Positions 8,047 through 45,819 of a DNA stretch of 64,000 bases are shown in pieces. The stretch covers positions 434,001-498,000 of the forward strand of contig JACAAK010000014.1 in NCBI GenBank assembly GCA_025093985.1. Reading direction: 5' to 3'. A program made the position numbers and the translations under genes. This DNA comes from Calvatia gigantea (taxonomy: Eukaryota > Basidiomycota > Agaricomycetes > Agaricales > Lycoperdaceae). The notes beneath the pieces are model-generated. The model ran no database searches and was not told the DNA's origin. It saw only the letters and a list, made by a program, of their open reading frames with translations. Position 1 is the stretch's first letter, and every line of letters starts with the position of its first letter.

Positions 8047-8125
8047 CTAGTATCTTTGTCTGGGGTTTGACTTGGCTGATGTTTTCTTGGATTTCTTGCC
8101 CCCCTTTTTATAGGTATCCTCCGGA
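8047..8125 (-). CDS. C-terminal tail of A3 pol (fragment)
   Basis: These are the last roughly 26 codons of the A3 polyprotein, basic (Lys/Gly/Ser-rich), ending at TAG 8049-8047. They continue the chromodomain reading frame that stops at 35898, once the B element and one TCCGG copy are removed. The aligned tail is visible in A1 (about 3510-3585) and A2 (about 25050-25121). Confidence 0.85.
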
Positions 8126-8751
8126 TGTTACATGTGTTACCTTACTTCGCAACCGGGCCCAGATCGTCTCCACTTAGGGAGAGGTTCAACGCTATAGCCC
8201 AGGAGTATTCGACAAGTCTCAATGACTTCTGTACAGGCTTCGGATCGCTCCCTCGAGTAGAAGCTCACGCTTGCCTGAGAAGTCCAAGTTAAATGTCACT
8301 GCAGTCCCCAAGGTTGTTAGCCTTGTAGCAGACGAGCGAAGATAAGGAAGCTTGTTACTAGAATAACCTAAAGTAATACAAAGTACTACCTAAGGTTTAT
8401 ATACTAGCTGCGAATAGGAGATGAGAGATTACGTAGTAAGTAGATATGAGTCAATGAGAACTACTACGGGTTAATTGGTAATCTAAGGAATCATGGGGGA
8501 TAGGTGAAATGAATAGAAGAACGAGTACGAGTCATAAGAAGATGGAGTCAGGTAAAGAGAAGTACAATGGTGGAAAAGATGAAGATGAAACAGGAACATG
8601 ACTCAGAATGAGTCATAAGAAGAGAAGGTAGAAGTACATGTGATAGATAAATAAAGAACGGACCGGGGTATACGGGAAGAAGAATGGAAAGTTCGTACGG
8701 AAGGTTAATACGTTAATGCAGAGAGTCCGGGGGTGTGGTAAGTTCGTAACA
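8126..8751 (-). repeat. Family B left copy, 3' LTR (626 bp)
   Basis: On the minus strand it runs TGTTACGAAC to ACACATGTAACA. It is nearly identical to the three other B LTRs in the window. Confidence 0.96.
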
Positions 8752-8783
8752 TTAGCCCGTCTCTAGGTAAATTACTCCGAAAT

Positions 8784-9137
8784 TTACGCAGATAAGACTG
8801 AATAGTCCAAGGATACTCCGTCGTCGTAATATTCGTCGTCGAAGGCATCACGGGGGTTTTCCAGGACTTGTTCTTGGAAACGTTGTTTCATATTTTCCAC
8901 GGCTTGAACGTGGTCGACGTATTTTGGACAATCTTCTGGTTTATGTTTCGGGTTGAGAGTTTCGCAGAGTCGGCAGAAGTATTGGGGGCAAGTCCAGCGG
9001 TAATGGCCAGGGCGGGTTTTTCGACAGATGGGGCAAGTGGTATGGGCACAATCACTGGCCCAGTGACCTACGGCAGGGAGGTGAAGTTTGGCACATTTTT
9101 CACAAAAGGCCTTCAGGTTGAAGTTCGGGTTGTTCAT
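8784..9137 (-). CDS. Family B 3' zinc-knuckle ORF (117 aa), left copy
   Basis: A small ORF near the 3' LTR carries three successive CCHC-type knuckles. The first is C-x2-C-x9-H-x4-C (about residues 12-30), the second C-x2-C-x6-H-x4-C (about 35-50) and the third C-x2-C-x6-H-x4-C (about 55-70). An acidic tail follows. Nucleic-acid binding is the likely property, from knowledge of retroviral nucleocapsid knuckles. The ATG overlaps the TGA of the upstream 411-codon frame (ATGA), an arrangement compatible with coupled termination and reinitiation. It is a separate entity from the Gag knuckle of this element (about residue 275 of the 319-residue Gag ORF). Confidence 0.72.
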   Translation of the reverse strand: MNNPNFNLKAFCEKCAKLHLPAVGHWASDCAHTTCPICRKTRPGHYRWTCPQYFCRLCETLNPKHKPEDCPKYVDHVQAVENMKQRFQEQVLENPRDAFDDEYYDDGVSLDYSVLSA

Positions 9138-10369
9138 AGCTCGGGGTTGGATTGGGGTTCTTCCTCGTCCTGAGTTGGGGCCGAGGGGTTTTCGAATAGA
9201 CTTCTGAGGCTCAGAAGTTGGTCCAATTGGCCCATTAAGTTGTGTATGGCCGTTTCGAATCGTTCAGGTGGGATGTGCCCGTCTGGATGGGAGAGATGTG
9301 GAGGAGGAAGGTACATGCAGTTCGGGGGAGGAGTTTCTCGCGGGGGAATCGGTTCGTTGGTGTGGTCTGACCTTAGAAGGGCCAGTTCGCTAGTTGGGTG
9401 GGATAGGCTTAACGCTATGCTCGTTGAGGTAGCGGGCATAAGTCTGAGGTAATCCAAGGCTTCGTGATGCCTGGATAAATAGGGCCGCTCGATCGGTAGT
9501 GTGCTCATAATCCCGAGAAAGATGTTCGAGCTGTGAAATGGCGTCGCAGATAAAGCGCCAGTGATTTCGCTGATTGGCATTATGTAGATATTCGGTGCGG
9601 AAGCGAGTTCGATGGCCTCCCTTGAGGACCATCGTGCGGAGGGATCCCTCAGATGAGAAATCAGTTCTAGCCCATAACTCCATGGGCGAAGGTCCATCGT
9701 TCGCAGAGGAGGGCTTGGGGGAGAAGCGGCTTCGCCTGTTGGGATCTCGGTCGGATGGGTTGGCTGCGACATAACCCGCGGCCGAGTGTTCGGTGGGGTG
9801 TTGTTCGTCCCAGGCTGATCTGGGGGGTTCCGGATTGACGGTGGTAGTGGTGGGGGACTTTGGAGAGGGGCCGGCGGTGGAGGGGGGAATGTGTCGTTGG
9901 TCGAGGACAGGAAGTTCCGCCCTAATAGATTTCGGGACCCCAGCTTGCTCCGAGGGGAGTGTTGGGGTGGGGTTGTCGGCCCAGATTGGGTAGACATACT
10001 TTGGTTTTGGCGACCAGAGGAGCCGCTGTGGGGTTGATTTCGTATCATAGGTGGCGGTATGGGGAGTGGCTCCGGCGACGACGTTGGAGAAGGAGACTGG
10101 CGGGTCTCTTGGCTCGGGGTTGTTGGGTGGATTTGATACGTTTGGCTGCTGGGAATGAAGTTGGGATACAGCGGAGCTGCTTCCCATTCTTGTTGGGTAG
10201 GTGAGTTTATCCCAGGGGGCACTGGGAGATGACTCGGTGGAGGGGGGAATGTAGACGCAATCTGGACCGACGAAGACGTTGACCCAGAATTGTTTGTTCT
10301 GGTCCGCGAATTGTTGGAGCTTGTCTTTGGTGAAGACGGCATTCGGGAGGGTGATGATAGGCTTTTCAA
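9134..10369 (-). CDS. Family B 3' ORF, frame 2 (411 codons, Pro/Ser-rich), left copy
   Basis: This long open frame lies between pol and the zinc-knuckle ORF and overlaps a second long open frame (9390-10601) for about 980 bp. The first part is Pro/Ser/Thr-rich; the C-terminal part has an ordered-looking stretch before an acidic end. I recognise no domain. The DNA here is C-rich and T-poor, so stops are rare by composition, and an open frame alone is weak evidence. Protein-like stretches appear to alternate between the two frames. One of the two may be a shadow, or the true product may need a frame change or splicing. Confidence 0.45.
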   Translation of the reverse strand: MKSLSSPSRMPSSPKTSSNNSRTRTNNSGSTSSSVQIASTFPPPPSHLPVPPGINSPTQQEWEAAPLYPNFIPSSQTYQIHPTTPSQETRQSPSPTSSPEPLPIPPPMIRNQPHSGSSGRQNQSMSTQSGPTTPPQHSPRSKLGSRNLLGRNFLSSTNDTFPPPPPAPLQSPPPLPPSIRNPPDQPGTNNTPPNTRPRVMSQPTHPTEIPTGEAASPPSPPLRTMDLRPWSYGLELISHLRDPSARWSSREAIELASAPNIYIMPISEITGALSATPFHSSNIFLGIMSTLPIERPYLSRHHEALDYLRLMPATSTSIALSLSHPTSELALLRSDHTNEPIPPRETPPPNCMYLPPPHLSHPDGHIPPERFETAIHNLMGQLDQLLSLRSLFENPSAPTQDEEEPQSNPEL

Positions 10370-10601
10370 GCAGTTCGTTAATTTGGACGGTAGGGAGAAT
10401 TGGGGTTTCGTGGCCCACAGGTGTGACGGTGGGAGGGTAGGATATAGAAATATGAGGGGAGGAGGGGAGAGAATGGGCTTTTCTGACTGGGGAATTGTTT
10501 TTAGTAGAAAGGGAGGAGATGGAAGAGAGGGAAGGAGAGGGGGATGAGGCTACAATAGCTGCTTTCTTTCCCTTCTTGTAGTTTTTCTGGGTTGGTGCCA
10601 T
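9390..10601 (-). CDS. Family B 3' ORF, frame 1 (403 codons, truncated versus right copy)
   Basis: It begins with an ATG 62 bp after the pol stop. The N-terminus is Lys-rich then Ser/Pro-rich. An ordered-looking region in the last third contains R-T-M-V-L-K-G-G-H and W-R-F-I-C-D-A-I. In the right copy the frame is 445 codons. Here a CAG-to-TAG change (9392-9390) shortens it, one of the few differences between the two B copies. It is in the same frame as the zinc-knuckle ORF downstream, separated by a stop. Function unknown. Confidence 0.5.
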   Translation of the reverse strand: MAPTQKNYKKGKKAAIVASSPSPSLSSISSLSTKNNSPVRKAHSLPSSPHISISYPPTVTPVGHETPILPTVQINELLEKPIITLPNAVFTKDKLQQFADQNKQFWVNVFVGPDCVYIPPSTESSPSAPWDKLTYPTRMGSSSAVSQLHSQQPNVSNPPNNPEPRDPPVSFSNVVAGATPHTATYDTKSTPQRLLWSPKPKYVYPIWADNPTPTLPSEQAGVPKSIRAELPVLDQRHIPPSTAGPSPKSPTTTTVNPEPPRSAWDEQHPTEHSAAGYVAANPSDRDPNRRSRFSPKPSSANDGPSPMELWARTDFSSEGSLRTMVLKGGHRTRFRTEYLHNANQRNHWRFICDAISQLEHLSRDYEHTTDRAALFIQASRSLGLPQTYARYLNEHSVKPIPPN

Positions 10602-10662
10602 TGGTAGTTCGGTTTGTAGAAGTGCTGTTAAGGAATGATGGAGAAGTTGAGTGAATCCTGGA

Positions 10663-13600
10663 TTATTTATATCTTTTAGGTGGGATGGGAATTAGGTGGT
10701 GTTCTCGTTGGTATTTTCGTAACATTTCTTGGGCATGTGGTAAGAGTTGTGCTTCGTTTTCCCAAGAGTTTTCTTCATGGCTGTAACCTTTCCACTTGAT
10801 GTAGTATTCCCTTTGTTTATTCTTGGTTCTATGGTTCAAGATGCCTTCGATTTCGTATTCTTCTTCTCCTTCTATTATGTCAGGGAGAGGTGGTTGTGGG
10901 TTTGATCCATGGGTATTGTTTTCGGTGTATTCGGAGAGAAGGGTAGCGTGGAATACGTTGTGAATCTTCCATGTTTCAGGTAGTTTCAGTCGGTAGGAGA
11001 GCGGCGATAAGACTTCTTTGATAGCGAATGGTCCAAGGCGTTTTGGTGCGATCTTGTTTGATTTGAATGGGAGTTTCAGGTTTCTCCGTTCAAGCCACAC
11101 CTTTTGTCCTAGGGCGAAGGGTTTGAATTTTGCTTTGATTCGTTGTTCCATGCGTTCCATAGCTAGTTTGTGGGCAGCAATTGCTTCTCTTCGTGCATGG
11201 TCTAAGAGTTCTATTCGTTCTTCAGTAGTGGTGAAGTTTGATTCCTCTAGAATAGTGGGTATTCCATGGGGTTTTGTTCCGTACATGAGTTCAAAAGGGG
11301 TTTGTTTCCGGTCTGAATGTGTTCGTGAATTGTGGGAGAATTCGAGGATTGGGAGTGCTTTAGACCAGGAGGAGGGATTTCCTGTACAGTAGATAGATAG
11401 GTACGCTGCAATTTCCTGATTGAATCGTTCTGTTGTTCCATCCGATTGAGGGTGGTAGGCTGATGAGAATGATTGGGTGATTCCAAGTCGTTTCATGAGA
11501 GCTTGACTGGAGTTTGCTCGGAATCTGGGGTCACGGTCGGAGATTATCTTGTCCGGTAGTCCGAATCTGGTGTAGACCTTGTCTATAATTATGTTGGCAA
11601 TTCCTTTGGTGGTGATTTCCTTTGTACAAGGAGTGAGAATTACCCCCTTCGTAAGTCCATGGTCCACTATGGACAGAATTGAGTCGAATCCGTGGGATTT
11701 TGGTAAATCGGTCAGCAGATCCATAGCGATATGGGCGAATGGTCTAGTCGATATCGGCGGTGGTATCGGTTGCAATGAGGGGTGGGAAGGACTCCGGTTG
11801 ACTTTGAATTGTTGGCATTCGCTGCATCCTTTAACGTAATTTCGTATGAAGGTACTCATTCCTGGCCAATATACTTCAGCTTTGGCGAGGCGATAAGTTT
11901 CTTGTTCTCCAGGGTGTCCGACCGAAGGGTGGTCGTGGTATCGTTGGATGACACGTCGGCGGAGTTCCATGTCTTCTGGGATGATGATCTTCCCTTCGAA
12001 TGTCATAAGATGTCCATATGGCCTGGGAATCATCCCGTATTTCGGATTTATTGCTTCTGGTGATTCTGATAGAAGTCGTTTCATGGCTTCCATGGTGATT
12101 TCGTCATATTTCGATGATTTTACGATGTCGTCCTGTAATTTCTGATCAACCATGGAGATGAACAGTTCGTCTGGTAATACAGTGATTTCCCTGAGGAATA
12201 CTTCCTCGGGTAAGACAATAACATTTTCGTTGTCATTGTCATCATCTGGGGTGTGATCTGGTCGACGTGAGAGGGCATCGGCGGCAGGTATTTTAGTTCC
12301 TGGGACGTGTTCAATTGCGAAGTCGAAGTGTGAGAGGAAACCAAGCCATCGAGCTTGTCTCCTGGAGATATTTTGGGGTTTTCTCCAAAAGGTGAGGTTC
12401 TTGTGATCAGTTCGTATGGTTACGCGATGTTGGGCTCCTTCTAAGTAATGTCGCCATTCTTCTAGTGCCGTGATTATGGCAAGGAGTTCCCTGTTGTGTA
12501 TTTCGTAGTTTCATTGGGTAGGATTGAATGCTTTGGATAGGAAAGCTACTGGGTGGTAGTTTCCGTTCATGTCTTGCTGTGATAAGACTGCTCCCAAGGC
12601 GTACTTTGAGGCATCAGTTTCGATAAAGAAGGGTTTTGTTTGGTCTGGCATCAGCAAAACGGGTTTCTTCATGAATTCGGATTTTAGTTGGCTGAAGGCT
12701 TCGTTTGCTTTGTGTTCCCATTCGAATTTCTTTGTTTTGGATAGAAGAGCATTAAGCGGTCGAGAGATATCGGCATAGCGATGTATGAATTTTCGGTAGA
12801 AGTTACAGAATCCCATGAATTTTCTGACATCGCGGGTAGTGCGGGGTAAGGGCCATTCTTCTATTCCACGGAGTTTGGTGTTGTCTATTTCGATCTTGTC
12901 GGGGGAGATTATCATGCCGAGATATTCTAGATGGGTTTTATCAAATTCGCATTTTTCTAGCTTCAGGTATAGGTCGTTGTCTTTCAAGATCTGAAGTGCT
13001 TCCAAAGTAAGGCGATCCATTTCTTCCTGAGTTTTTGCGTAGATGAGAATGTCGTCCATATAGATTATAATTCCTCCTTTATCTAGCATTTTTGCGAATA
13101 TGGTGTCCATCATCTTTTGGAAGGTGGCTGGGGAGTTGCACATTCCAAAGAACATTACGTTCGGTTCGTAAAGTCCAATTGGAGTTTTGAATGCAGCTTT
13201 CCATTGGTCTCCTTCTCGAATACGGATGTTGTTGTATCCGAGTCGGACGTCCATTTTCGTGAATAGTTTTGCTCCTTGAAGTTTGTCCATAATTGTTGTT
13301 ATCATAGGAATAGGGTACGCGTTCTTCTTGGTATGTTTGTTTAGATAACGGTAATCTTGGCATGGCCGAAGTTTCCCGTCCTTCTTTCCTACGAAAAAGA
13401 AGGATGAGGCCATGGGAGATTCAGATTCTCGGATGTATCCTTTTCGGAGGTTTTCGTTTATGAACTTCTTGAGTTCTTCGGTTTCAAGGGGTGATAAGGG
13501 GTACGTTTTTCCTAGTTCTGGTTTAAAGGTATCCAAGAGTTCGATTTTATGGTCGTATGGCCTGGGAGGGGGGAATCGTTCGGATTTCTTCGTATCGAAG

Positions 13601-14431
13601 AGTGAAGCGAATTTCTTGTATTTCCTGGGTACCTTTGTATCGGTTTTTGGGGTTGATTTTTGTGCAAGACTTGTAGCTTGGGTGATCTTCGTATTGATTT
13701 CGAGTTCATGTGGAGTTTGAGTGATTTCGTAGAGTTCGTGTTCCAAATGGAATTCGTCGAAATCAATGTTTTCCAAATAGAGTTTGAGTTCATCGATAGA
13801 GAGTTCAGGTTCTTCCGAATGGACGATCGCTTCAAAGACTTTTACAGCAAGTGGGTCAAAGTCTTCATCTAGGTAGGTGTAGCGTTCGGTATCATTCATT
13901 CCCTGGATATCTAAGGCGATTTCATTGATGGTGGTAGGTCCATTTGTGGATTTTACGATTAAGGGTACGATGTTGTTGTTGTTTCGCCATTTGAACTCTT
14001 GAGTAGTCCAATTTATGTCTGGGTTCGTTTGTTGTAGCCATGGGTATCCTAGGATTAGATCTTTAGATCCTATTCCTGAGACGTAGGCTTCGAATTGGCA
14101 TTGTTTTCCATCGACTAAAGCGTTCAATTCTACGCTTTCATAGATTGACCCATTTTCATTGGGAGTTCCATCCGCATTGGATACTTTGATAGGATGTTTG
14201 ATAGGGCGTGTTCGTAGTCCGTAGGTATTTGTAAAATTCGAGGAGATGAAGTTTCCTTGGGCTCCCGAGTCAATTAGAGCGGTGACTGGGATATTTCGTA
14301 GATGGTTCTGATTGAGTTTGATAGGGAGGAAGATTGATGCTTTATTGTCCGAGGTAGGGAGTTTTATTAGATTAATTTGTGGGTCACCCAGCGATTCCTT
14401 TACAGGATCGGGTGACGCTTTCAAAAATCCC
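10663..14431 (-). pseudogene. Family B pol, left copy (one in-frame TGA)
   Basis: This is a Ty3/gypsy polyprotein in the -1 frame relative to gag. An aspartic protease with L-I-D-S-G-A-Q lies near residue 52. The RT active site is I-Y-M-D-D near residue 455. RNase H follows (E-T-D-A-S). The integrase has a GHPGE/H2C2 module, catalytic D, D and E with S-D-R-D-P and T-E-R-F-N-Q, and a C-terminal chromodomain (E-Y-E-I-E-G, W-K-G-Y). The frame is broken by TGA at 12513-12511, where related elements have Arg in the R-N-Y-E-I motif of RNase H. The rest is open. There is no ATG at the 5' end, so it is expected to be made by frameshifting from gag. The right copy has the same lesion. Confidence 0.9.
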
Positions 14432-14537
14432 CGAAGGGCTTGAGTGTTGGATCAGAGATATATACTTCTCTGAATTCCATTCTTTCATCCATTGGGAGTT
14501 CTCTGATCATTGCTTGGATATCAAGTGCAGAGATCTT

Positions 14538-15854
14538 TCAGGTTTGATTAGGAGCGGCACCGGAGTAATTCCTGGAGGCTTGAGGTTGTGAGGGTTGTGC
14601 ATAATGGGGTGGTTGCATGAATCTTCTTTGTGGCGGGTGGGGTCGTCTAGGAGGTGGTTTTTCCTTGGACAGGTTTGGGTCAGGATTTGGACAATTGCTG
14701 ATAAGGTGTCCAAATTTCCCGCAGCCTATGCATTTCCCAGCTTTGTAGCGAGCGACTTGCTCAGCAGTAAATACAGCGTTTAGTTGTAATTCGGGGTCAT
14801 CCAAGTCGTAGCCTTCATGAGTGTAGTCTTGCTCTGGGGGATACGGTTCTTCGTCTTTGTAAGGTGGTTCGTAGGGGTCTTGAGGTTCTGCCTGTACTTC
14901 ATGTATGGTTCGTGCAGGTTGGCGATTTGGTTGAAAACGAGTGTGGTAGGTTGGTTGGAAACGGGGTGGTTGGTAGGGGGTTGGGTTTCGAGGGAAGTTT
15001 CTAGGCCACATTGCGTCGGCTTGACGATTGACAGAGTCTCGTCGTACTGCATCGGTATACCATTCAGCAATGGTTTCGGGTGGTCCTTCTTTTCTAGTCC
15101 ATACTTCTCTTGCGAGATTAGGATTGAGTCCTCGTTTATATTGTTCAATTAATGCTTCATTGTCTTGAATTCCTCCAATAGATGCAAGGCGTTGGAATTC
15201 AAGATTAAAGTCTGCTGCTGAGGACTTATTTTGCTTTAATTCGTACCATTGCCTTCGCACAGTGATTTGTTCATCTACTGGAGTGAAATGTTTCAAGATT
15301 TCAATTTTGAATTCTTCGAAGGTAGAGTATCTCCAAGGGATGGGTTTTCCACGGGCATCGGTAATTCGGCTTTTGTAATATTGTTCAGACCAGGATCCGG
15401 CTTTCCCTTCGACCATAAGGCCGAGGACGAATCTGATCTGTCGCTGGTCATCCGTAAATGCTCTGGGGTTCATTTCGAGATAGTTTTTGACTAGCATCCA
15501 CCAGGTTTTAAATCGGGGGTTTGTTCCGTCGAAGTTTGGCGGCTTTTGTCCGATTTCTTTTGAATTTCCATCGTTTCCTACAAATTGAATGGCTGGAGTA
15601 CAATGTCTTTGTCGACCTCCTCCTTCTCTTCCAATGGAGAAAGAGGACGGAGTGAATGAACCATGGCTGGAGTTTCGTGATGAGGGAGGGGAGGGAGAGG
15701 GCGCTCTTCCTTGTCGACCTCTGCAGGGAGGATCTTCTCCTGGTGTTCTTCATCGTCCAATTCCGAAGATGGGGGTTGTAGTTCCTGATCGGGGTGGTGG
15801 TTGGTCGGTTGGTTCATTATTTGTTTCAGTTTGCGTTTGAGTGGAAGTAGCCAT
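14538..15854 (-). pseudogene. Family B gag, left copy
   Basis: The Gag core (from about 15580 down to 14538) has a capsid-like region beginning with F-D-G-T-N-P-R-F-K-T-W-W and a CCHC zinc knuckle, C-x2-C-x4-H-x4-C, near 14690-14730. The first in-frame ATG is at 15854. A TGA at 15752-15750 interrupts the frame between that ATG and the core. A second TGA (14540-14538) precedes about 37 more codons that resemble a normal Gag C-terminus. The natural Gag end is then the TGA next to the GGATTTTT run at the pol overlap. A middle stretch looks better coded in another frame (about 15790-15580), suggesting compensating indels. All of this is shared with the right copy. Confidence 0.8.
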
Positions 15855-16632
15855 GCCTTCGATTTCTGGATGAATTGGTTCTTGTGATTCAAAACCCGGG
15901 ATATCTGGGTATTCGAGGGTGTCTGGAGTGTATATAAGATGGGTTCCTTTTTGATTGAGGATGTCTTGGAAGTCAAATGGATGTTCGGGCAGCTGATGGA
16001 ACGTCTCGTTGTCTTCGTTGTCTTCAAGGACGGATGGTAAGGTGTGGGGGTTTTCGATTCCGAATTGGGAAGGGGATACGGCTCTGGATGGTGTCTGTGG
16101 CGGTGACTCTTGAGGTGGACCTTGCTTGGGCGAATCGGGTCGAAAATAGTCAATTTTGCCACTTTGTGTTGGTTTCGGTGGTTCAGGCTCAGTGGATTTT
16201 CTAGTAGGTGCTGGTAATTCTTGCAGTAGTTTTGGTTTTTGTGATCTAGTGCGTGGGGTATGATAAATCCTTTCTAAGAATGGTGCAGAAGGTCCTTCTG
16301 GTTGATGAGTTTGTTTAGGTGGGGGAGTAGTAGGAGACTCAAATGAGTGTTGGGTTGGTGTATGGAATGATCGTTCTGGAGATGAGGAAGGAGGGTGTAA
16401 GGGACGTTTCCCTTTTCGCGACGTGGTGAAGAAAGATAGATAGCGGTAGCCAGGCCCGCTCTTCTCAACGCTACTTGGCGGAGGACAGATAAACAAATTA
16501 GTGGACCCGAAGTTCCACTCTTCTTAACCCTATTACCGGGAAGGCTTCTCGACGTCAACTGGACAGAGGGATAGTCGGCAGAAGCTGGCCGTAAGAGACT
16601 GGAGTCATATAGAAACGAGAGAAAAGAGGTTG

Positions 16633-16642
16633 AGGTTATTCT
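16633..16642 (-). promoter_or_regulatory. Family B self-primer binding site, left copy
   Basis: AGAATAACCT (minus strand) lies two bases inside the 5' LTR. It is an exact 10-nt complement of AGGTTATTCT at 16879-16888 in the LTR, at the position expected for the transcript 5' end. This is the arrangement of Tf1/sushi-type self-primed elements. Confidence 0.75.
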
Positions 16643-16644
16643 TA

Positions 16645-17270
16645 TGTTACGTGCGTTACCTTACTTCGCAACCGGGCCCGGATCGTCTCCACTTAGGGAG
16701 AGGTTCAACGCTATAGCCCAGGAGTATTCGACAAGTCTCAATGACTTCTGTACAGGCTTCGGATCGCTCCCTCGAGTAGAAGCTCACGCTTGCCTGAGAA
16801 GTCCAAGTTAAATGTCACTGCAGTCCCCAAGGTTGTTAGCCTTGTAGCAGACGAGCGAAGATAAGGAAGCTTGTTACTAGAATAACCTAAAGTAATACAA
16901 AGTACTACCTAAGGTTTATATACTAGCTGCGAATAGGAGATGAGAGATTACGTAGTAAGTAGATATGAGTCAATGAGAACTACTACGGGTTAATTGGTAA
17001 TCTAAGGAATCATGGGGGATAGGTGAAATGAATAGAAGAACGAGTACGAGTCATAAGAAGATGGAGTCAGGTAAAGAGAAGTACAATGGTGGAAAAGATG
17101 AAGATGAAACAGGAACATGACTCAGAATGAGTCATAAGAAGAGAAGGTAGAAGTACATGTGATAGATAAATAAAGAACGGACCGGGGTATACGGGAAGAA
17201 GAATGGAAAGTTCGTACGGAAGGTTAATACGTTAATGCAGAGAGTCCGGGGGTGTGGTAAGTTCGTAACA
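16645..17270 (-). repeat. Family B left copy, 5' LTR (626 bp)
   Basis: This is the upstream LTR of the minus-strand copy. It contains TATATAAA and, about 30 nt downstream, AGGTTATTCT (16879-16888 on the plus strand as AGAATAACCT). Confidence 0.96.
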
Positions 17271-18336
17271 GGAACCCCATATTCCCCTTCAATAATCTCC
17301 GATCCATGCGAGGATGAGTTATTTGGCCGAGTGGAGCAATGCTTCTTCAGGCTTCAGGCTTCATTGGTTCATTTTGGAAAGGGAAGCACAATATCACCCA
17401 AGACCGATAGGTGGCAAAGGGAGACTGTTTCGGGGTGATCAAAAATCTCGGAGTCGACAGCATTTGGGCTGAGTATTCTGGTGATTTATCAAAAAGCAGG
17501 CATTAAACTTGGAGCAAGATTGAGATGCTTGCTGGACCTGCAGGTGGAATGACATCTGACCCAGAGAAATGGAACTTCTGTTATGACTTCTTATTCTAGC
17601 ATTCTCCTCTTTTGGACTGATTCCATTTATAGTCCTCCCTTTATTTAGTAACATCCTTGTATGTACAATAGTTTGCTTCTTTCGCCTTCCTCTTTGTTAT
17701 CCCGACTTGCCACCATTCCCCTCCCTGTTTGACTTGATATGGTGATTCCTAGTACAGACATTCTCTCCCTATATGATGCATGTTCAACACATGTACATAT
17801 CCTTTGTCTTTATCTTTCTTCCAACTTACCTAGTATAAGTAGTTAGATAGATACTCATTGTAATCTTCAGTTTGAAATATTCAGTTAACACCCTCATCTC
17901 AACTCACTCTTGCCTGAACTAAGGCCCATTGGATTTGCCTTATATTCTTGACCAGCTTTATACAGAGACAAGTCCCTGAGAGGATCCCCTCTATATATAG
18001 ACCTCCAGTTCCAATCATTGGGAAGAAGTCTGTATAGATGCCCATTGACTGAGAACAACCCTGAGGTAAGTGTGCATATAACAACTTCCATTAGAGAAAA
18101 AAAAAAGAGTAAGGTTCCAACAAGATTCTAACCCACTGGGCCAAAGCAAGAGGTATTCCAGGATGGGTGCTCATAAAACTAGATTGAGTCAGGGATCCCA
18201 GAGTCTAATGGGTGGGTGGAGTTGCAGGATACTATCCTTCAAAGTTTTATCCCTGTTTGGCAACAGGTGAATGAAGTTCTTGTCTGCAGACAATGTCACA
18301 CTTTACTAAGTGAGTGTGATAACCTCAGCAACCCCC
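17271..18336. other. Non-coding stretch with B target duplication and an LTR-like remnant
   Basis: GGAAC at 17271-17275 is the other half of the GTTCC duplication at 45044-45048. From 17276 to about 17350 the minus strand is open in a frame that continues past 45049 (see findings). A block at 17579-17889 begins TGTTATGA, ends GTTAACA and holds a TATAAGTAG box, so it may be an old LTR of another family. No matching duplication or partner was found. From 17890 to 18336 I recognise nothing. Confidence 0.4.
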
Positions 18337-19120: not shown

Positions 19121-19122
19121 AA

Positions 19123-31222: not shown

Positions 31223-31290
31223 CATCACCTCACCTTGCAGGAAACAGAGTTGAAAAAGACTCGAACCACGATGAACCCAGGAGCTATTAT

Positions 31291-36524: not shown

Positions 36525-36526
36525 TA

Positions 36527-36536
36527 AGAATAACCT
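36527..36536 (+). promoter_or_regulatory. Family B self-primer binding site, right copy
   Basis: AGAATAACCT, two bases after the LTR, is the exact 10-nt reverse complement of 36281-36290. Confidence 0.75.
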
Positions 36537-37314
36537 CAACCTCTTTTCTCTCGTTTCTATACGACTCCAGTCTCTTACGGCCAGCTTCTGCCGACTATCC
36601 CTCTGTCCAGTTGACGTCGAGAAGCCTTCCCGGTAATAGGGTTAAGAAGAGTGGAACTTCGGGTCCACTAATTTGTTTATCTGTCCTCCGCCAAGTAGCG
36701 TTGAGAAGAGCGGGCCTGGCTACCGCTATCTATCTTTCTTCACCACGTCGCGAAAAGGGAAACGTCCCTTACACCCTCCTTCCTCATCTCCAGAACGATC
36801 ATTCCATACACCAACCCAACACTCATTTGAGTCTCCTACTACTCCCCCACCTAAACAAACTCATCAACCAGAAGGACCTTCTGCACCATTCTTAGAAAGG
36901 ATTTATCATACCCCACGCACTAGATCACAAAAACCAAAACTACTGCAAGAATTACCAGCACCTACTAGAAAATCCACTGAGCCTGAACCACCGAAACCAA
37001 CACAAAGTGGCAAAATTGACTATTTTCGACCCGATTCGCCCAAGCAAGGTCCACCTCAAGAGTCACCGCCACAGACACCATCCAGAGCCGTATCCCCTTC
37101 CCAATTCGGAATCGAAAACCCCCACACCTTACCATCCGTCCTTGAAGACAACGAAGACAACGAGACGTTCCATCAGCTGCCCGAACATCCATTTGACTTC
37201 CAAGACATCCTCAATCAAAAAGGAACCCATCTTATATACACTCCAGACACCCTCGAATACCCAGATATCCCGGGTTTTGAATCACAAGAACCAATTCATC
37301 CAGAAATCGAAGGC
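36537..37314 (+). other. Family B leader, open in the gag frame but without ATG
   Basis: The gag frame is open from about 36670, and the translation is Pro/Glu-rich and protein-like. No ATG occurs in that frame before 37315. Either this is leader with chance openness, or Gag has an N-terminal extension started at a non-AUG codon or after splicing. The same holds in the left copy (15855-16500). Confidence 0.5.
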
Positions 37315-38631
37315 ATGGCTACTTCCACTCAAACGCAAACTGAAACAAATAATGAACCAACCGACCAACCACCACCCCGATCAGGAACTACAACCCCCAT
37401 CTTCGGAATTGGACGATGAAGAACACCAGGAGAAGATCCTCCCTGCAGAGGTCGACAAGGAAGAGCGCCCTCTCCCTCCCCTCCCTCATCACGAAACTCC
37501 AGCCATGGTTCATTCACTCCGTCCTCTTTCTCCATTGGAAGAGAAGGAGGAGGTCGACAAAGACATTGTACTCCAGCCATTCAATTTGTAGGAAACGATG
37601 GAAATTCAAAAGAAATCGGACAAAAGCCGCCAAACTTCGACGGAACAAACCCCCGATTTAAAACCTGGTGGATGCTAGTCAAAAACTATCTCGAAATGAA
37701 CCCCAGAGCATTTACGGATGACCAGCGACAGATCAGATTCGTCCTCGGCCTTATGGTCGAAGGGAAAGCCGGATCCTGGTCTGAACAATATTACAAAAGC
37801 CGAATTACCGATGCCCGTGGAAAACCCATCCCTTGGAGATACTCTACCTTCGAAGAATTCAAAATTGAAATCTTGAAACATTTCACTCCAGTAGATGAAC
37901 AAATCACTGTGCGAAGGCAATGGTACGAATTAAAGCAAAATAAGTCCTCAGCAGCAGACTTTAATCTTGAATTCCAACGCCTTGCATCTATTGGAGGAAT
38001 TCAAGACAATGAAGCATTAATTGAACAATATAAACGAGGACTCAATCCTAATCTCGCAAGAGAAGTATGGACTAGAAAAGAAGGACCACCCGAAACCATT
38101 GCTGAATGGTATACCGATGCAGTACGACGAGACTCTGTCAATCGTCAAGCCGACGCAATGTGGCCTAGAAACTTCCCTCGAAACCCAACCCCCTACCAAC
38201 CACCCCGTTTCCAACCAACCTACCACACTCGTTTTCAACCAAATCGCCAACCTGCACGAACCATACATGAAGTACAGGCAGAACCTCAAGACCCCTACGA
38301 ACCACCTTACAAAGACGAAGAACCGTATCCCCCAGAGCAAGACTACACTCATGAAGGCTACGACTTGGATGACCCCGAATTACAACTAAACGCTGTATTT
38401 ACTGCTGAGCAAGTCGCTCGCTACAAAGCTGGGAAATGCATAGGCTGCGGGAAATTTGGACACCTTATCAGCAATTGTCCAAATCCTGACCCAAACCTGT
38501 CCAAGGAAAAACCACCTCCTAGACGACCCCACCCGCCACAAAGAAGATTCATGCAACCACCCCATTATGCACAACCCTCACAACCTCAAGCCTCCAGGAA
38601 TTACTCCGGTGCCGCTCCTAATCAAACCTGA
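37315..38631 (+). pseudogene. Family B gag, right copy
   Basis: The first in-frame ATG is in the context GGCATGGCT. TGA at 37417-37419 separates it from the Gag core, which is open through 37672-38631 with a CCHC knuckle near 38440-38480. TGA at 38629-38631 is followed by about 37 Gag-like codons in frame, up to the natural TGA (38746-38748) beside GGATTTTT. A middle block is better coded in another frame. Lesions are identical to those of the left copy. Confidence 0.8.
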
Positions 38632-38738
38632 AAGATCTCTGCACTTGATATCCAAGCAATGATCAGAGAACTCCCAATGGATGAAAGAATGGAATTCAGA
38701 GAAGTATATATCTCTGATCCAACACTCAAGCCCTTCGG

Positions 38739-41700
38739 GGATTTTTGAAAGCGTCACCCGATCCTGTAAAGGAATCGCTGGGTGACCCACAAATTAATCT
38801 AATAAAACTCCCTACCTCGGACAATAAAGCATCAATCTTCCTCCCTATCAAACTCAATCAGAACCATCTACGAAATATCCCAGTCACCGCTCTAATTGAC
38901 TCGGGAGCCCAAGGAAACTTCATCTCCTCGAATTTTACAAATACCTACGGACTACGAACACGCCCTATCAAACATCCTATCAAAGTATCCAATGCGGATG
39001 GAACTCCCAATGAAAATGGGTCAATCTATGAAAGCGTAGAATTGAACGCTTTAGTCGATGGAAAACAATGCCAATTCGAAGCCTACGTCTCAGGAATAGG
39101 ATCTAAAGATCTAATCCTAGGATACCCATGGCTACAACAAACGAACCCAGACATAAATTGGACTACTCAAGAGTTCAAATGGCGAAACAACAACAACATC
39201 GTACCCTTAATCGTAAAATCCACAAATGGACCTACCACCATCAATGAAATCGCCTTAGATATCCAGGGAATGAATGATACCGAACGCTACACCTACCTAG
39301 ATGAAGACTTTGACCCACTTGCTGTAAAAGTCTTTGAAGCGATCGTCCATTCGGAAGAACCTGAACTCTCTATCGATGAACTCAAACTCTATTTGGAAAA
39401 CATTGATTTCGACGAATTCCATTTGGAACACGAACTCTACGAAATCACTCAAACTCCACATGAACTCGAAATCAATACGAAGATCACCCAAGCTACAAGT
39501 CTTGCACAAAAATCAACCCCAAAAACCGATACAAAGGTACCCAGGAAATACAAGAAATTCGCTTCACTCTTCGATACGAAGAAATCCGAACGATTCCCCC
39601 CTCCCAGGCCATACGACCATAAAATCGAACTCTTGGATACCTTTAAACCAGAACTAGGAAAAACGTACCCCTTATCACCCCTTGAAACCGAAGAACTCAA
39701 GAAGTTCATAAACGAAAACCTCCGAAAAGGATACATCCGAGAATCTGAATCTCCCATGGCCTCATCCTTCTTTTTCGTAGGAAAGAAGGACGGGAAACTT
39801 CGGCCATGCCAAGATTACCGTTATCTAAACAAACATACCAAGAAGAACGCGTACCCTATTCCTATGATAACAACAATTATGGACAAACTTCAAGGAGCAA
39901 AACTATTCACGAAAATGGACGTCCGACTCGGATACAACAACATCCGTATTCGAGAAGGAGACCAATGGAAAGCTGCATTCAAAACTCCAATTGGACTTTA
40001 CGAACCGAACGTAATGTTCTTTGGAATGTGCAACTCCCCAGCCACCTTCCAAAAGATGATGGACACCATATTCGCAAAAATGCTAGATAAAGGAGGAATT
40101 ATAATCTATATGGACGACATTCTCATCTACGCAAAAACTCAGGAAGAAATGGATCGCCTTACTTTGGAAGCACTTCAGATCTTGAAAGACAACGACCTAT
40201 ACCTGAAGCTAGAAAAATGCGAATTTGATAAAACCCATCTAGAATATCTCGGCATGATAATCTCCCCCGACAAGATCGAAATAGACAACACCAAACTCCG
40301 TGGAATAGAAGAATGGCCCTTACCCCGCACTACCCGCGATGTCAGAAAATTCATGGGATTCTGTAACTTCTACCGAAAATTCATACATCGCTATGCCGAT
40401 ATCTCTCGACCGCTTAATGCTCTTCTATCCAAAACAAAGAAATTCGAATGGGAACACAAAGCAAACGAAGCCTTCAGCCAACTAAAATCCGAATTCATGA
40501 AGAAACCCGTTTTGCTGATGCCAGACCAAACAAAACCCTTCTTTATCGAAACTGATGCCTCAAAGTACGCCTTGGGAGCAGTCTTATCACAGCAAGACAT
40601 GAACGGAAACTACCACCCAGTAGCTTTCCTATCCAAAGCATTCAATCCTACCCAATGAAACTACGAAATACACAACAGGGAACTCCTTGCCATAATCACG
40701 GCACTAGAAGAATGGCGACATTACTTAGAAGGAGCCCAACATCGCGTAACCATACGAACTGATCACAAGAACCTCACCTTTTGGAGAAAACCCCAAAATA
40801 TCTCCAGGAGACAAGCTCGATGGCTTGGTTTCCTCTCACACTTCGACTTCGCAATTGAACACGTCCCAGGAACTAAAATACCTGCCGCCGATGCCCTCTC
40901 ACGTCGACCAGATCACACCCCAGATGATGACAATGACAACGAAAATGTTATTGTCTTACCCGAGGAAGTATTCCTCAGGGAAATCACTGTATTACCAGAC
41001 GAACTGTTCATCTCCATGGTTGATCAGAAATTACAGGACGACATCGTAAAATCATCGAAATATGACGAAATCACCATGGAAGCCATGAAACGACTTCTAT
41101 CAGAATCACCAGAAGCAATAAATCCGAAATACGGGATGATTCCCAGGCCATATGGACATCTTATGACATTCGAAGGGAAGATCATCATCCCAGAAGACAT
41201 GGAACTCCGCCGACGTGTCATCCAACGATACCACGACCACCCTTCGGTCGGACACCCTGGAGAACAAGAAACTTATCGCCTCGCCAAAGCTGAAGTATAT
41301 TGGCCAGGAATGAGTACCTTCATACGAAATTACGTTAAAGGATGCAGCGAATGCCAACAATTCAAAGTCAACCGGAGTCCTTCCCACCCCTCATTGCAAC
41401 CGATACCACCGCCGATATCGACTAGACCATTCGCCCATATCGCTATGGATCTGCTGACCGATTTACCAAAATCCCACGGATTCGACTCAATTCTGTCCAT
41501 AGTGGACCATGGACTTACGAAGGGGGTAATTCTCACTCCTTGTACAAAGGAAATCACCACCAAAGGAATTGCCAACATAATTATAGACAAGGTCTACACC
41601 AGATTCGGACTACCGGACAAGATAATCTCCGACCGTGACCCCAGATTCCGAGCAAACTCCAGTCAAGCTCTCATGAAACGACTTGGAATCACCCAATCAT

Positions 41701-42506
41701 TCTCATCAGCCTACCACCCTCAATCGGATGGAACAACAGAACGATTCAATCAGGAAATTGCAGCGTACCTATCTATCTACTGTACAGGAAATCCCTCCTC
41801 CTGGTCTAAAGCACTCCCAATCCTCGAATTCTCCCACAATTCACGAACACATTCAGACCGGAAACAAACCCCTTTTGAACTCATGTACGGAACAAAACCC
41901 CATGGAATACCCACTATTCTAGAGGAATCAAACTTCACCACTACTGAAGAACGAATAGAACTCTTAGACCATGCACGAAGAGAAGCAATTGCTGCCCACA
42001 AACTAGCTATGGAACGCATGGAACAACGAATCAAAGCAAAATTCAAACCCTTCGCCCTAGGACAAAAGGTGTGGCTTGAACGGAGAAACCTGAAACTCCC
42101 ATTCAAATCAAACAAGATCGCACCAAAACGCCTTGGACCATTCGCTATCAAAGAAGTCTTATCGCCGCTCTCCTACCGACTGAAACTACCTGAAACATGG
42201 AAGATTCACAACGTATTCCACGCTACCCTTCTCTCCGAATACACCGAAAACAATACCCATGGATCAAACCCACAACCACCTCTCCCTGACATAATAGAAG
42301 GAGAAGAAGAATACGAAATCGAAGGCATCTTGAACCATAGAACCAAGAATAAACAAAGGGAATACTACATCAAGTGGAAAGGTTACAGCCATGAAGAAAA
42401 CTCTTGGGAAAACGAAGCACAACTCTTACCACATGCCCAAGAAATGTTACGAAAATACCAACGAGAACACCACCTAATTCCCATCCCACCTAAAAGATAT
42501 AAATAA
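38739..42506 (+). pseudogene. Family B pol, right copy (one in-frame TGA)
   Basis: It has the same organisation as the left copy: protease D-S-G-A-Q, RT with Y-M-D-D near 40108, RNase H, integrase and C-terminal chromodomain (W-K-G-Y near 42380). The only break is TGA at 40656-40658 in the RNase H motif, where Arg is expected. The two open parts are 38745-40658 and 40659-42506. The first has no ATG near its start, as expected for a frameshift product. Confidence 0.9.
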
Positions 42507-42567
42507 TCCAGGATTCACTCAACTTCTCCATCATTCCTTAACAGCACTTCTACAAACCGAACTACCA

Positions 42568-43905
42568 ATGGCACCAACCCAGAAAAACTACAAGAAGGGA
42601 AAGAAAGCGGCTATTGTAGCCTCATCCCCCTCTCCTTCCCTCTCTTCCATCTCCTCCCTTTCTACTAAAAACAATTCCCCAGTCAGAAAAGCCCATTCTC
42701 TCCCCTCCTCCCCTCATATTTCTATATCCTACCCTCCCACCGTCACACCTGTGGGCCACGAAACCCCAATTCTCCCTACCGTCCAAATTAACGAACTGCT
42801 TGAAAAGCCTATCATCACCCTCCCGAATGCCGTCTTCACCAAAGACAAGCTCCAACAATTCGCGGACCAGAACAAACAATTCTGGGTCAACGTCTTCGTC
42901 GGTCCAGATTGCGTCTACATTCCCCCCTCCACCGAGTCATCTCCCAGTGCCCCCTGGGATAAACTCACCTACCCAACAAGAATGGGAAGCAGCTCCGCTG
43001 TATCCCAACTTCATTCCCAGCAGCCAAACGTATCAAATCCACCCAACAACCCCGAGCCAAGAGACCCGCCAGTCTCCTTCTCCAACGTCGTCGCCGGAGC
43101 CACTCCCCATACCGCCACCTATGATACGAAATCAACCCCACAGCGGCTCCTCTGGTCGCCAAAACCAAAGTATGTCTACCCAATCTGGGCCGACAACCCC
43201 ACCCCAACACTCCCCTCGGAGCAAGCTGGGGTCCCGAAATCTATTAGGGCGGAACTTCCTGTCCTCGACCAACGACACATTCCCCCCTCCACCGCCGGCC
43301 CCTCTCCAAAGTCCCCCACCACTACCACCGTCAATCCGGAACCCCCCAGATCAGCCTGGGACGAACAACACCCCACCGAACACTCGGCCGCGGGTTATGT
43401 CGCAGCCAACCCATCCGACCGAGATCCCAACAGGCGAAGCCGCTTCTCCCCCAAGCCCTCCTCTGCGAACGATGGACCTTCGCCCATGGAGTTATGGGCT
43501 AGAACTGATTTCTCATCTGAGGGATCCCTCCGCACGATGGTCCTCAAGGGAGGCCATCGAACTCGCTTCCGCACCGAATATCTACATAATGCCAATCAGC
43601 GAAATCACTGGCGCTTTATCTGCGACGCCATTTCACAGCTCGAACATCTTTCTCGGGATTATGAGCACGCTACCGATCGAGCGGCCCTATTTATCCAGGC
43701 ATCACGAAGCCTTGGATTACCTCAGGCTTATGCCCGCTACCTCAACGAGCATAGCGTTAAGCCTATCCCACCCAACCAGCGAACTGGCCCTTCTAAGGTC
43801 AGACCACACCAACGAACCGATTCCCCCGCGAGAAACTCCTCCCCCGAACTGCATGTACCTTCCTCCTCCACATCTCTCCCATCCAGACGGGCACATCCCA
43901 CCTGA
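42568..43905 (+). CDS. Family B 3' ORF, frame 1 (445 codons), right copy
   Basis: It starts at an ATG 62 bp after pol. It is Lys-rich at the N-terminus, then Ser/Pro-rich, with an ordered-looking region near residues 320-390. No known domain is recognised. The last roughly 40 codons look like shadow sequence, and frame 2 looks better there. It overlaps the 411-codon frame for about 1.1 kb. The left copy stops earlier through CAG to TAG. Confidence 0.5.
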   Translation: MAPTQKNYKKGKKAAIVASSPSPSLSSISSLSTKNNSPVRKAHSLPSSPHISISYPPTVTPVGHETPILPTVQINELLEKPIITLPNAVFTKDKLQQFADQNKQFWVNVFVGPDCVYIPPSTESSPSAPWDKLTYPTRMGSSSAVSQLHSQQPNVSNPPNNPEPRDPPVSFSNVVAGATPHTATYDTKSTPQRLLWSPKPKYVYPIWADNPTPTLPSEQAGVPKSIRAELPVLDQRHIPPSTAGPSPKSPTTTTVNPEPPRSAWDEQHPTEHSAAGYVAANPSDRDPNRRSRFSPKPSSANDGPSPMELWARTDFSSEGSLRTMVLKGGHRTRFRTEYLHNANQRNHWRFICDAISQLEHLSRDYEHATDRAALFIQASRSLGLPQAYARYLNEHSVKPIPPNQRTGPSKVRPHQRTDSPARNSSPELHVPSSSTSLPSRRAHPT

Positions 43906-44035
43906 ACGATTCGAAACGGCCATACACAACTTAATGGGCCAATTGGACCAACTTCTGAGCCTCAGAAGTCTATTCGAAAACCCCTCGGCCCCAACTCAGG
44001 ACGAGGAAGAACCCCAATCCAACCCCGAGCTATGA
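42800..44035 (+). CDS. Family B 3' ORF, frame 2 (411 codons), right copy
   Basis: Pro-rich frame overlapping the previous ORF. Its stop TGA (44033-44035) overlaps the ATG of the zinc-knuckle ORF (44032-44034). It is identical in translation to the left copy although the DNA differs by some bases. Whether both frames are translated cannot be decided here. Confidence 0.45.
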   Translation: MKSLSSPSRMPSSPKTSSNNSRTRTNNSGSTSSSVQIASTFPPPPSHLPVPPGINSPTQQEWEAAPLYPNFIPSSQTYQIHPTTPSQETRQSPSPTSSPEPLPIPPPMIRNQPHSGSSGRQNQSMSTQSGPTTPPQHSPRSKLGSRNLLGRNFLSSTNDTFPPPPPAPLQSPPPLPPSIRNPPDQPGTNNTPPNTRPRVMSQPTHPTEIPTGEAASPPSPPLRTMDLRPWSYGLELISHLRDPSARWSSREAIELASAPNIYIMPISEITGALSATPFHSSNIFLGIMSTLPIERPYLSRHHEALDYLRLMPATSTSIALSLSHPTSELALLRSDHTNEPIPPRETPPPNCMYLPPPHLSHPDGHIPPERFETAIHNLMGQLDQLLSLRSLFENPSAPTQDEEEPQSNPEL

Positions 44036-44385
44036 ACAACCCGAACTTCAACCTGAAGGCCTTTTGTGAAAAATGTGCCAAACTTCACCTCCCTGCCGTA
44101 GGTCACTGGGCCAGTGATTGTGCCCATACCACTTGCCCCATCTGTCGAAAAACCCGCCCTGGCCATTACCGCTGGACTTGCCCCCAATACTTCTGCCGAC
44201 TCTGCGAAACTCTCAACCCAAAACATAAACCAGAAGATTGTCCAAAATACGTCGACCACGTTCAAGCCGTGGAAAATATGAAACAACGTTTCCAAGAACA
44301 AGTCCTGGAAAACCCCCGTGATGCCTTCGACGACGAATATTACGACGACGGAGTATCCTTGGACTATTCAGTCTTATCTGCGTAA
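44032..44385 (+). CDS. Family B 3' zinc-knuckle ORF (117 aa), right copy
   Basis: It has the same three CCHC-type knuckles as the left copy, with identical protein sequence. It is followed by about 30 bp and the 3' LTR. Confidence 0.72.
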   Translation: MNNPNFNLKAFCEKCAKLHLPAVGHWASDCAHTTCPICRKTRPGHYRWTCPQYFCRLCETLNPKHKPEDCPKYVDHVQAVENMKQRFQEQVLENPRDAFDDEYYDDGVSLDYSVLSA

Positions 44386-44417
44386 ATTTCGGAGTAATTT
44401 ACCTAGAGACGGGCTAA

Positions 44418-45043
44418 TGTTACGAACTTACCACACCCCCGGACTCTCTGCATTAACGTATTAACCTTCCGTACGAACTTTCCATTCTTCTTCCCATATA
44501 CCCCAGTCCGTTCTTTATTTATCTATCACATGTACTTCTACCTTCTCTTCTTATGACTCATTCTGAGTCATGTTCCTGTTTCATCTTCATCTTTTCCACC
44601 ATTGTACTTCTCTTTACCTGACTCCATCTTCTTATGACTCGTACTCGTTCTTCTATTCATTTCACCTATCCCCCATGATTCCTTAGATTACCAATTAACC
44701 CGTAGTAGTTCTCATTGACTCATATCTACTTACTACGTAATCTCTCATCTCCTATTCGCAGCTAGTATATAAACCTTAGGTAGTACTTTGTATTACTTTA
44801 GGTTATTCTAGTAACAAGCTTCCTTATCTTCGCTTGTCTGCTACAAGGCTAACAACCTTGGGGACTGCAGTGACATTTAACTTGGACTTCTCAGGCAAGC
44901 GTGAGCTTCTACTCGAGGGAGCGATCCGAAGCCTGTACAGAAGTCATTGAGACTTGTCGAATACTCCTGGGCTATAGCGTTGAACCTCTCCCTAAGTGGA
45001 GACGATCCGGGCCCGGTTGCGAAGTAAGGTAACGCATGTAACA
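44418..45043 (+). repeat. Family B right copy, 3' LTR (626 bp)
   Basis: It runs TGTTACGAAC to GCATGTAACA and is followed by GTTCC (45044-45048). Confidence 0.96.
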
Positions 45044-45819
45044 GTTCCTGGGGAGGTCCTTGCGAGGTTCTTTGTCAACACCCTGCCAGATCAGAGCCCT
45101 TCAGGCGCTTCACGGAATCCTCGAGCATCCGTGCACCCTGAAACAATCTCCGTTCAGGACTAATGAGACAATATCCGGGTATAACCAGGTATAACCCCGG
45201 CTTTCCACCTGCCCTAGACTCAAAGGATCGCACGATCCGCAAGCCTCCGAGTAGACGTGGTGACTGATCATTTCCTAGTGCTCCTTGCATGCTCCCGGCC
45301 TCACCCGCACAACCCATCCGACATGAGTGTCTCCAGTCAACTCCATACCCCTCCGTAAACAGGCAGCGCACCCACACTGGCTGCGTTCGGGCTGCGTAAT
45401 ACCTAAGTGGAGACTCCACGTGCCTCTGGTTGGCAACAGAAACGTCTTTCCCCTTGATGGTGCCTGTCCCCCAAGGGTCCGAATGCGGGGTTCATATTAC
45501 CTTCTCATCCCATCGCTCAATATGTGCTTCCAGACTAGCTATTTCAGAATGCTTATTAAATTTGGACTCCGGCGGACGCGCAGTTTCAAGGGGCTTCTAA
45601 CCTGTGGAAGGGTCGTTAGAGTCCCACTGCCCTTCGAGAACATCGATCGTTCCCACTAGTCTTAGATCCTCGGGTCATCCTGCCCGCAGTGTCAGCTACC
45701 ATCCCACCCCATATGGTAACTTTCGCGGGGGGTGTTTTTTTTTCTCTTCAATCATTGGGAAGCGTGGGCGGGTGTAATCCATAAAGATGACCAGGTGATT
45801 AAAGTACTGCCGGATGCCC
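45044..45819. other. Flank of B: possible interrupted exon, then unassigned DNA
   Basis: The plus strand from 45049 is open to TAA 45161-45163 in the frame that continues from the minus strand at 17276 when B and one GTTCC copy are removed. The joined frame looks protein-like (G-V-P-G-E-V-L-A-R-F-F), but I do not recognise it. A 114-codon antisense frame (45075-45419) has no supporting feature. Nothing else was recognised up to the methyltransferase promoter. Confidence 0.35.

Follow-up and report, generated by a model that had tools for sequence, protein, structure and literature searches.

Two copies of one retrotransposon lie in opposite orientation in the window, the 64,000-nucleotide stretch of Calvatia gigantea DNA analysed here, and each is flanked by short sequences that match those of the other copy rather than each other. 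What event exchanged these flanks, and did it take place in the organism or in the assembly? We favor an inversion that is real and arose when the inverted copies of this element, here called B, recombined ectopically, with the exchange closer to an LTR end than to the middle, and we give this reading a probability of about 0.72. An Rfam search of the window returned nothing at gathering scores. For one protein of the window the nearest named relatives, behind higher-scoring unnamed entries, are from Macrolepiota fuliginosa (55%) and Leucocoprinus leucothites (42%), a placement no finer than an Agaricaceae-like mushroom.

Structure and divergence of the B copies

Ty3/gypsy chromoviruses are recognized by a gag, the order protease-RT-RNase H-integrase, a C-terminal chromodomain, TG..CA LTRs, and a 5-bp target duplication. 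Element B is a member of this group. Copy 1 carries gag, protease, RT, RNase H, integrase zinc, SH3_Tf2-1, and chromo domains, and the B integrase core (rve) scores 31.1 bits, just below the Pfam cut-off of 32.6. An exact 5-bp duplication of its own flanks 17 of the 29 two-ended B copies in our first comparison, indicating that 5 bp is the usual length.

8126-17270, coding strand minus: B copy 1, a Ty3/gypsy chromovirus LTR retrotransposon with interrupted protein frames
16645-17270 and 8126-8751, minus: 5' LTR and 3' LTR of B copy 1, with 3/626 differences between them
35899-45043, plus: B copy 2, in the opposite orientation to copy 1
35899-36524 and 44418-45043, plus: 5' LTR and 3' LTR of B copy 2, with 4/626 differences between them

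The copies are collinear at 9145 bp each, as the preliminary description had it, with 13 substitutions and no gaps (99.86% identity). They differ by 0.14%, compared with at least 3.48% from the 13 other B copies compared. Ten of the substitutions fall within the first 2435 bp and three in the last zone, a weak imbalance (P 0.09), and no difference is found between B positions 2435 and 8482. An SNP-free interior of this length (6047 bp) has a chance probability of 5e-6 under a uniform model and 5e-5 under a weighted one. The ratio of LTR to interior divergence is 7.4 for this pair, where the median of 105 pairs is 1.07; another young pair, L022/L027, shows an LTR excess too (2.7-fold, P 0.02), and part of the 7.4-fold excess may therefore be a trait of young copies. 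The SNP-free 6-kb stretch is the stronger sign of conversion, and this sequence pattern points to either recent gene conversion or assembly collapse.

Exchanged target duplications

None of the flanking 5-mer pairs matches within a copy (0/2), whereas both pairs match across copies at all five bases (2/2). The coordinates and 5-mers given earlier for these sites, here named X and Y, were exact on recheck.

8121-8125, plus: CCGGA, left half of the X duplication, directly before B copy 1; its partner lies at 35894-35898
35894-35898, plus: TCCGG, the reverse complement of CCGGA and other half of X, directly before B copy 2
17271-17275, plus: GGAAC, one half of the Y duplication, directly after B copy 1; its partner lies at 45044-45048
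45044-45048, plus: GTTCC, the other half of Y, directly after B copy 2
17271-35898, no strand: inverted segment of 18628 bp, whose flip restores X, Y, and the elements A3, C, and the A1 LTR

Flipping this segment gives each B copy its own duplication, as had been proposed, and restores both target sites. When the X flanks are joined in this way, all 40 of the scored A3 matches genome-wide (554 first-look candidates) run through the join without interruption, and the X flank pairs as they now stand end at the junction or at most 3 bases from it in the four A3 loci that were realigned. The joined Y flanks continue across the join at two paralogous loci, C6:355320 and C6:357654, with 70% and 67% identity; in local realignment the join is crossed in L036, and L035 is only collinear, in two pieces. 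The restoration of Y is weaker than that of X. The Y target lies in host DNA, some 1 kb upstream of a reading frame that resembles a methyltransferase.

Nested elements reunited by the flip

Elements that are split in the present arrangement were also said to be reunited by the flip, and this held for A3, for C (with a 4-bp flank match only), and for the 3' LTR of A1.

30903-35898, plus: larger piece of retrotransposon A3, with the 5' LTR from 30903 and pol up to the X site
6729-8125, minus: smaller piece of A3, with the end of pol and the 3' LTR (6729-7035)
25340-30902, plus: larger piece of element C, with an LTR (25340-26138) and a DUF4100 and aspartyl protease frame
4692-6728, minus: smaller piece of C, with the second LTR at about 4693-5491; base 4692 is flank and part of the 4-bp match
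1-4692, plus: retrotransposon A1, with pol and the first part of the 3' LTR
25122-25339, minus: remainder of the A1 3' LTR, now adjoining the pol of A2

The A3 LTRs are 3/307 apart, and TACTG stands on both sides of the element after the flip, once at 30898-30902. Upstream of X, the A3 pol frame (ORF from 35055; last 24 codons re-read) stays open as far as the insertion, and beyond X it runs for 23 codons to a stop. The earlier claim that pol is rejoined in frame agrees with arithmetic, both native pieces having been read separately. In element C the LTRs are 17/799 apart, and the flank match after the flip is GCGA, 4 bp only, a candidate duplication; no clear duplication was found at a solo C LTR upstream. 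For A1, where a family 5' LTR begins about 1.49 kb before the first base of the window, the joined 3' LTR pieces align in a single stretch to five of the six family LTRs tested and are 82% identical to the A1 5' LTR and 79% to that of A2. The outer A1 flanks, TGAAT and GGTCT, gave no match as an additional duplication test. LTR divergence after the flip declines in the order of nesting, from 2.1% in C through 1.0% in A3 to 0.5 and 0.6% in the two B copies.

A second exchanged pair and the B family

The same genome holds a second reciprocal exchange, between two inverted B copies 93.7 kb apart on contig C77.

C77:1092551-1206865, inverted pair: second locus with swapped duplications

One copy is flanked by GTTGA on the left and ATTGT on the right, the other by ATTGT on the left and GTTGA on the right. 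The copies are about 1.8% divergent (154 mismatches in 8,944 aligned bases; 98.3% and 98.0% identity over the two longest aligned stretches), and at that divergence the pair should be hard to misjoin. At the first ancestral site the flanks together rebuild an old B-like LTR that the insertion had cut at bases 61-65, and at the second they are contiguous in 38 of 44 matches. Both pairs have opposite-orientation copies at the breakpoints, exchanged duplications, and empty sites that are restored.

Our census of the family, drawn from the best 40 candidates per search, contains 31 two-ended B copies. Exact duplications of their own flank 18 of these, so the assembly is not as a rule mistaken where it passes through a B copy. 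In six of the 31 the ends are unmatched and a partner was not found, partner patterns having been tried for two of the six at one end each, so B copies that lack a duplication of their own are not rare. For those two, L013 and L014, the one-ended search, allowing up to two mismatches, gave no exact match. A translocation pair of L014 with a C45 copy was ruled out, as the latter has its own TCAAC duplication.

LTR alleles and the position of the exchange

At LTR site 209, both LTRs of copy 1 have G and both of copy 2 have A. A crossover in the middle of the element predicts chimeric copies, and site 209 makes such an exchange, whether in the organism or in the assembly, less likely, barring a double change or a conversion at that site. 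At site 7 of the window pair, left LTR groups with left and right with right, which fits neither pairing. Across both pairs, three sites back the present within-copy linkage (one in the window, two on C77), none backs the swapped linkage, and one fits neither. These few sites, 3 to 0, favor non-chimeric copies, although such sites often change in parallel (18 of 115 variable sites differ between LTRs in two or more copies). The suggestion that SNPs between the B copies could map the crossover was realized in part: site 209 argues against the middle, and the exchange point itself probably lay nearer an LTR end, in a terminal LTR part.

Origin of the probable inversion

How could this arrangement have arisen? 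Two near-identical B elements would have inserted in opposite orientation, one at X within A3, which already sat inside C, itself inside the A1 LTR, and the other at Y, in host sequence near the methyltransferase-like frame. Ectopic recombination between the inverted copies would then have flipped the intervening 18.6 kb and exchanged the target duplications, with the exchange probably in a terminal LTR part and much of the interior homogenized by a long tract of conversion. The preliminary description had named non-allelic recombination between inverted repeats; its inversion is well supported by the empty sites genome-wide and by the second case, and its warning of a misjoin was sound, a misjoin keeping some probability.

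In a misjoin, the organism would be non-inverted and the assembler would have switched between the 9-kb copies in their identical middle. The near identity of the copies favors this reading, their SNP-free middle is what an assembler failing on this repeat would leave, and the raised LTR/interior ratio fits collapse of an unresolvable middle. However, a switch in the middle predicts chimeras, and site 209, a single and changeable site, is G/G versus A/A as assembled. The lopsided SNP-bearing zones weakly oppose a misjoin as well, as do the second swap between copies about 1.8% apart and the intact duplications in more than half of the two-ended copies. We regard a misjoin as unlikely, though with a substantial minority share of the probability.

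Recombination can be distinguished from inversions born at integration by whether the copies are chimeric. Two sister cDNAs could have inserted together with their ends paired crosswise at two targets, one target receiving the left end of one cDNA and the right end of the other, and the second target the two ends left over, the segment being inverted during integration and the elements left non-chimeric. The LTR linkage fits such a crossed integration, as do the equal LTR ages of the window copies and their closeness to each other relative to other B copies. Simultaneous arrival is, however, opposed by the LTR ages of the C77 pair, 12 versus 1 differences (P 0.003), unless LTRs were converted, and the scheme leaves unexplained why the interiors of the window copies differ so little. 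We noticed no precedent in the literature surveyed, within a narrow search for this mechanism itself. Crossed integration seems improbable; if true, it would parallel, among retroelements, the aberrant transposition known from DNA transposons. Two unrelated insertions, with duplications decayed or never formed and cross matches by chance, could draw on the six unmatched copies of the census, but are for practical purposes refuted by empty sites that are restored independently and by the rarity of such matches, with about 7e-5 reciprocal double matches expected among the 78 pairs that can be formed from the 13 copies lacking an exact duplication of their own (12 of the 29-copy set plus the C77 partner) and two seen.

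Comparison with known systems

Recombination between inverted B copies would be an event of a kind already known, seen here with unusual clarity; what is new is the second swap, on C77, in the same genome. Swapped duplications together with the restoration of both empty sites allow insertion and inversion to be placed in order of time from a single assembly, and two swapped pairs among 31 two-ended copies suggest that inverted B copies rearranged this genome more than once. A search for swapped duplications is also a cheap screen for inversions or misjoins.

Inversion 2z3 of Drosophila buzzatii, generated by the transposon Galileo, resembles the B pair in having opposite-orientation copies at the breakpoints and exchanged target duplications (PMC2775673). 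Galileo is a DNA transposon, whereas B is an LTR element. The account of 2z3 demonstrated chimerism of the Galileo copies and included the sequencing of non-inverted chromosomes (PMC2775673), whereas the B copies show no chimerism at the LTR sites and are known from one assembly. A gibbon provirus, a recombined endogenous retrovirus with mismatched duplications, is likewise a case of recombination between copies recognized by duplications that do not match (PMC11379458). As described there, its LTRs cluster discordantly, its flanks lie on two chromosomes (a translocation), and a solo LTR is mentioned (PMC11379458), whereas the B case involves an inversion, with two full copies that are reciprocal to each other. 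Like the host of B, Marasmius oreades is a basidiomycete with structural change linked to transposons; in its report, one of at least 63 transposon-related variants is an inversion, and some deletions are attributed to non-allelic recombination between element copies (PMC9674265). That inversion involves hAT copies and, in the account given, was seen by comparison of sister clones (PMC9674265), whereas the inversion between B copies is read from their swapped duplications.

The window copies of B and their flanks

Element copies and target sites were compared within a single genome assembly of 45.95 Mb in 77 contigs (C6, C77 and so on), in which the window corresponds to C6:434001–498000. Two copies of the element B and one gene product within the window are listed here.

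8126–17270, minus strand: B copy 1, 9145 bp, 626-bp TG..CA LTRs, inverted relative to copy 2
35899–45043, plus strand: B copy 2, 9145 bp, 626-bp TG..CA LTRs, inverted relative to copy 1
62276–63988: NACHT-type protein, with Macrolepiota and Leucocoprinus proteins as nearest named relatives, which makes the source an Agaricaceae-like mushroom

Copy 1 contains gag, protease, RT, RNase H, parts of an integrase, SH3_Tf2-1 and chromo domains, which identifies B as a Ty3/gypsy chromovirus; reading frames in B are interrupted. Pairwise alignment over 9145 bp shows 13 substitutions and no gaps between the copies. The four flanking 5-mers reported in the preliminary description are exact, with duplication X (CCGGA at 8121–8125, TCCGG at 35894–35898) and duplication Y (GGAAC at 17271–17275, GTTCC at 45044–45048) each matching across the copies and neither within a copy. 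At the level of sequence, the signature of rearrangement is genuine.

Restoration of nested elements and empty target sites

Flipping 17271–35898, and thereby undoing the proposed inversion, gives the host element A3 two LTRs in direct order (3/307 bases different) with TACTG on both sides. Host element C likewise acquires an LTR pair (17/799 different) with a 4-base match, GCGA, and the rejoined pieces of the A1 3' LTR, which is split by C, align as one stretch to five of six family LTRs. LTR ages of C, A3 and B agree with a nesting of C in A1, A3 in C and X in A3.

To represent the empty X site, we used a 500-base query made of the flank to 8125 and the reverse complement of the 35893 side, with a single copy of the duplication. 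All 40 scored genome matches cover the joined flanks without a break, over the full query or almost all of it. Realignment at four loci shows exact agreement around the join, and at the same loci the present flank pairs break off at the junction or within 3 bases of it. Evidence from Y is weaker than that from X. The Y query gave four matches: two are the present flanks, and two are single matches elsewhere on C6 covering query bases 172–492 (70%) and 212–480 (67%). Upon local realignment only one of these loci, L036, crosses the join; the other, L035, aligns as two collinear pieces on either side of it. The Y site lies about 1 kb upstream of a methyltransferase-like frame at 46038. Such frames are repeated at 45925–46907 and 51673–52669 (Pfam Methyltransf_25, slightly below cut-off), and sequence related to this region occurs at C6:355320–357950.

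Target duplications across the B family

The B census is a sample, with the best 40 of more than 500 candidates scored per search. Flanks were compared for 29 two-ended copies (the two window copies, 13 others fully read and 14 for which the ends were read, or completed, in a separate step). An exact duplication of its own flanks each of 17 copies; in three more it is off by one or two bases, with no other sign of a swap. The nine that do not fit are the window copies, L011 and six others. One-ended copies (11 left, 15 right) lie outside this count, save for two right ends, on C45 and C77, that were later paired with their left ends. With these two included, the 31 copies comprise 18 exact (the C45 copy carries its own duplication), three near, four in two reciprocal swaps and six clearly unmatched and lacking a known partner. 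These six (L009, L013, L014, L026, C40:10331 and C11:1373) may stem from deletions or translocations that recombination caused; partner patterns were tried for L013 and L014, and neither yielded a partner. Separately, a left B end at C11:190581 and a right B end at C11:214039, 23 kb apart and both with CCAGA, probably belong to a single copy that later insertions broke apart.

A second swap on C77

The ends of L011 differ at two bases, yet this copy is a member of a second swap.

C77:1197731–1206865: L011, left GTTGA, right ATTGT
C77:1092551–1104066: partner of L011, an inverted B copy, left ATTGT, right GTTGA

The reciprocal swap over C77:1092551–1206865 (loci L011, L089, L091 and L093) implies a putative 93.7-kb inversion. 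Flipping it reunites an old, B-like LTR that now lies in two pieces, with a single alignment running from base 191 to base 1 (79%), and the present flank pairs at that site end at the junction. At the other ancestral site, 38 of 44 matches run uninterrupted across the join; three of the rest are partial, and the others comprise both present flanks together with a duplicate of one flank lying nearby.

Over the two longest stretches in which they align, the C77 copies show 98.3% and 98.0% identity (8,944 bases with 154 mismatches), with a third stretch of 391 bases, overlapping in L011, at 96.2%. L011 diverges by at least 3.9% from each of 14 other B copies compared. The partner is about 2.4 kb longer and has a second, separate match to L011 bases 1229–1617. 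The right flank of L011 is present twice (C77:1206866–1207165 and C77:1209668–1209966), 2.8 kb apart, 100% identical and starting at the duplication, which could reflect either tandem copying of the junction or a doubling introduced by the assembly.

Possible position of the exchange and the assembly alternative

An exchange inside the element would have separated the LTRs that share a duplication, leaving one in each copy, and these LTRs should then agree in their insertion-time alleles. For the window pair, the present pairing is favoured by one site (209) and the swapped pairing by none, while site 7 groups left LTRs with left and right with right; in the C77 pair the counts are two (23 and 117) and none. 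Taken at face value, these counts would place the window exchange in a terminal LTR part, either the first 209 bases of the copies or the last 417. The test could go astray through parallel change or through conversion of LTRs, as 2 of 13 other B copies have A at site 209 and, of 115 variable LTR sites, 18 show a difference between a copy's own LTRs in at least two of 15 copies.

The window copies differ at 7/1252 LTR bases and 6/7893 interior bases, a ratio of 7.4, against a median of 1.07 and a next highest value of 2.7 over the 105 pairs of 15 copies. LTR divergence predicts about 44 interior differences, and the stretch bounded by B positions 2435 and 8482 is free of them (P = 5e-6 assuming uniform placement, 5e-5 with weighting by the sites that vary among other copies). 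Private LTR changes alone, with sites 7 and 209 left out, give 5/2504 versus 6/15786 for the interior (P = 0.011). This homogeneity may reflect either recent conversion or repeat collapse in the assembly. Another young pair, L022 on C74 and L027 on C16, is 0.30% apart, with LTR divergence 2.7-fold that of the interior.

A misjoin through the repeat would produce the window arrangement as well. Because the same signature is found between the clearly distinguishable C77 copies, and because the LTR linkage is ill-suited to a misjoin in mid-repeat, the inversion is likely real in the organism.

Relation to known systems

Neither this locus nor crossed integration, in which two cDNAs would have their ends paired crosswise at two targets, turned up in the literature searches made here. 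Gene conversion among human LTRs is treated in PMC4921805, and PMC11379458 and PMC9674265 offer further comparison. The kind of event proposed here is already known: inversions of the swapped-duplication type are described for Galileo in Drosophila (PMC2775673).
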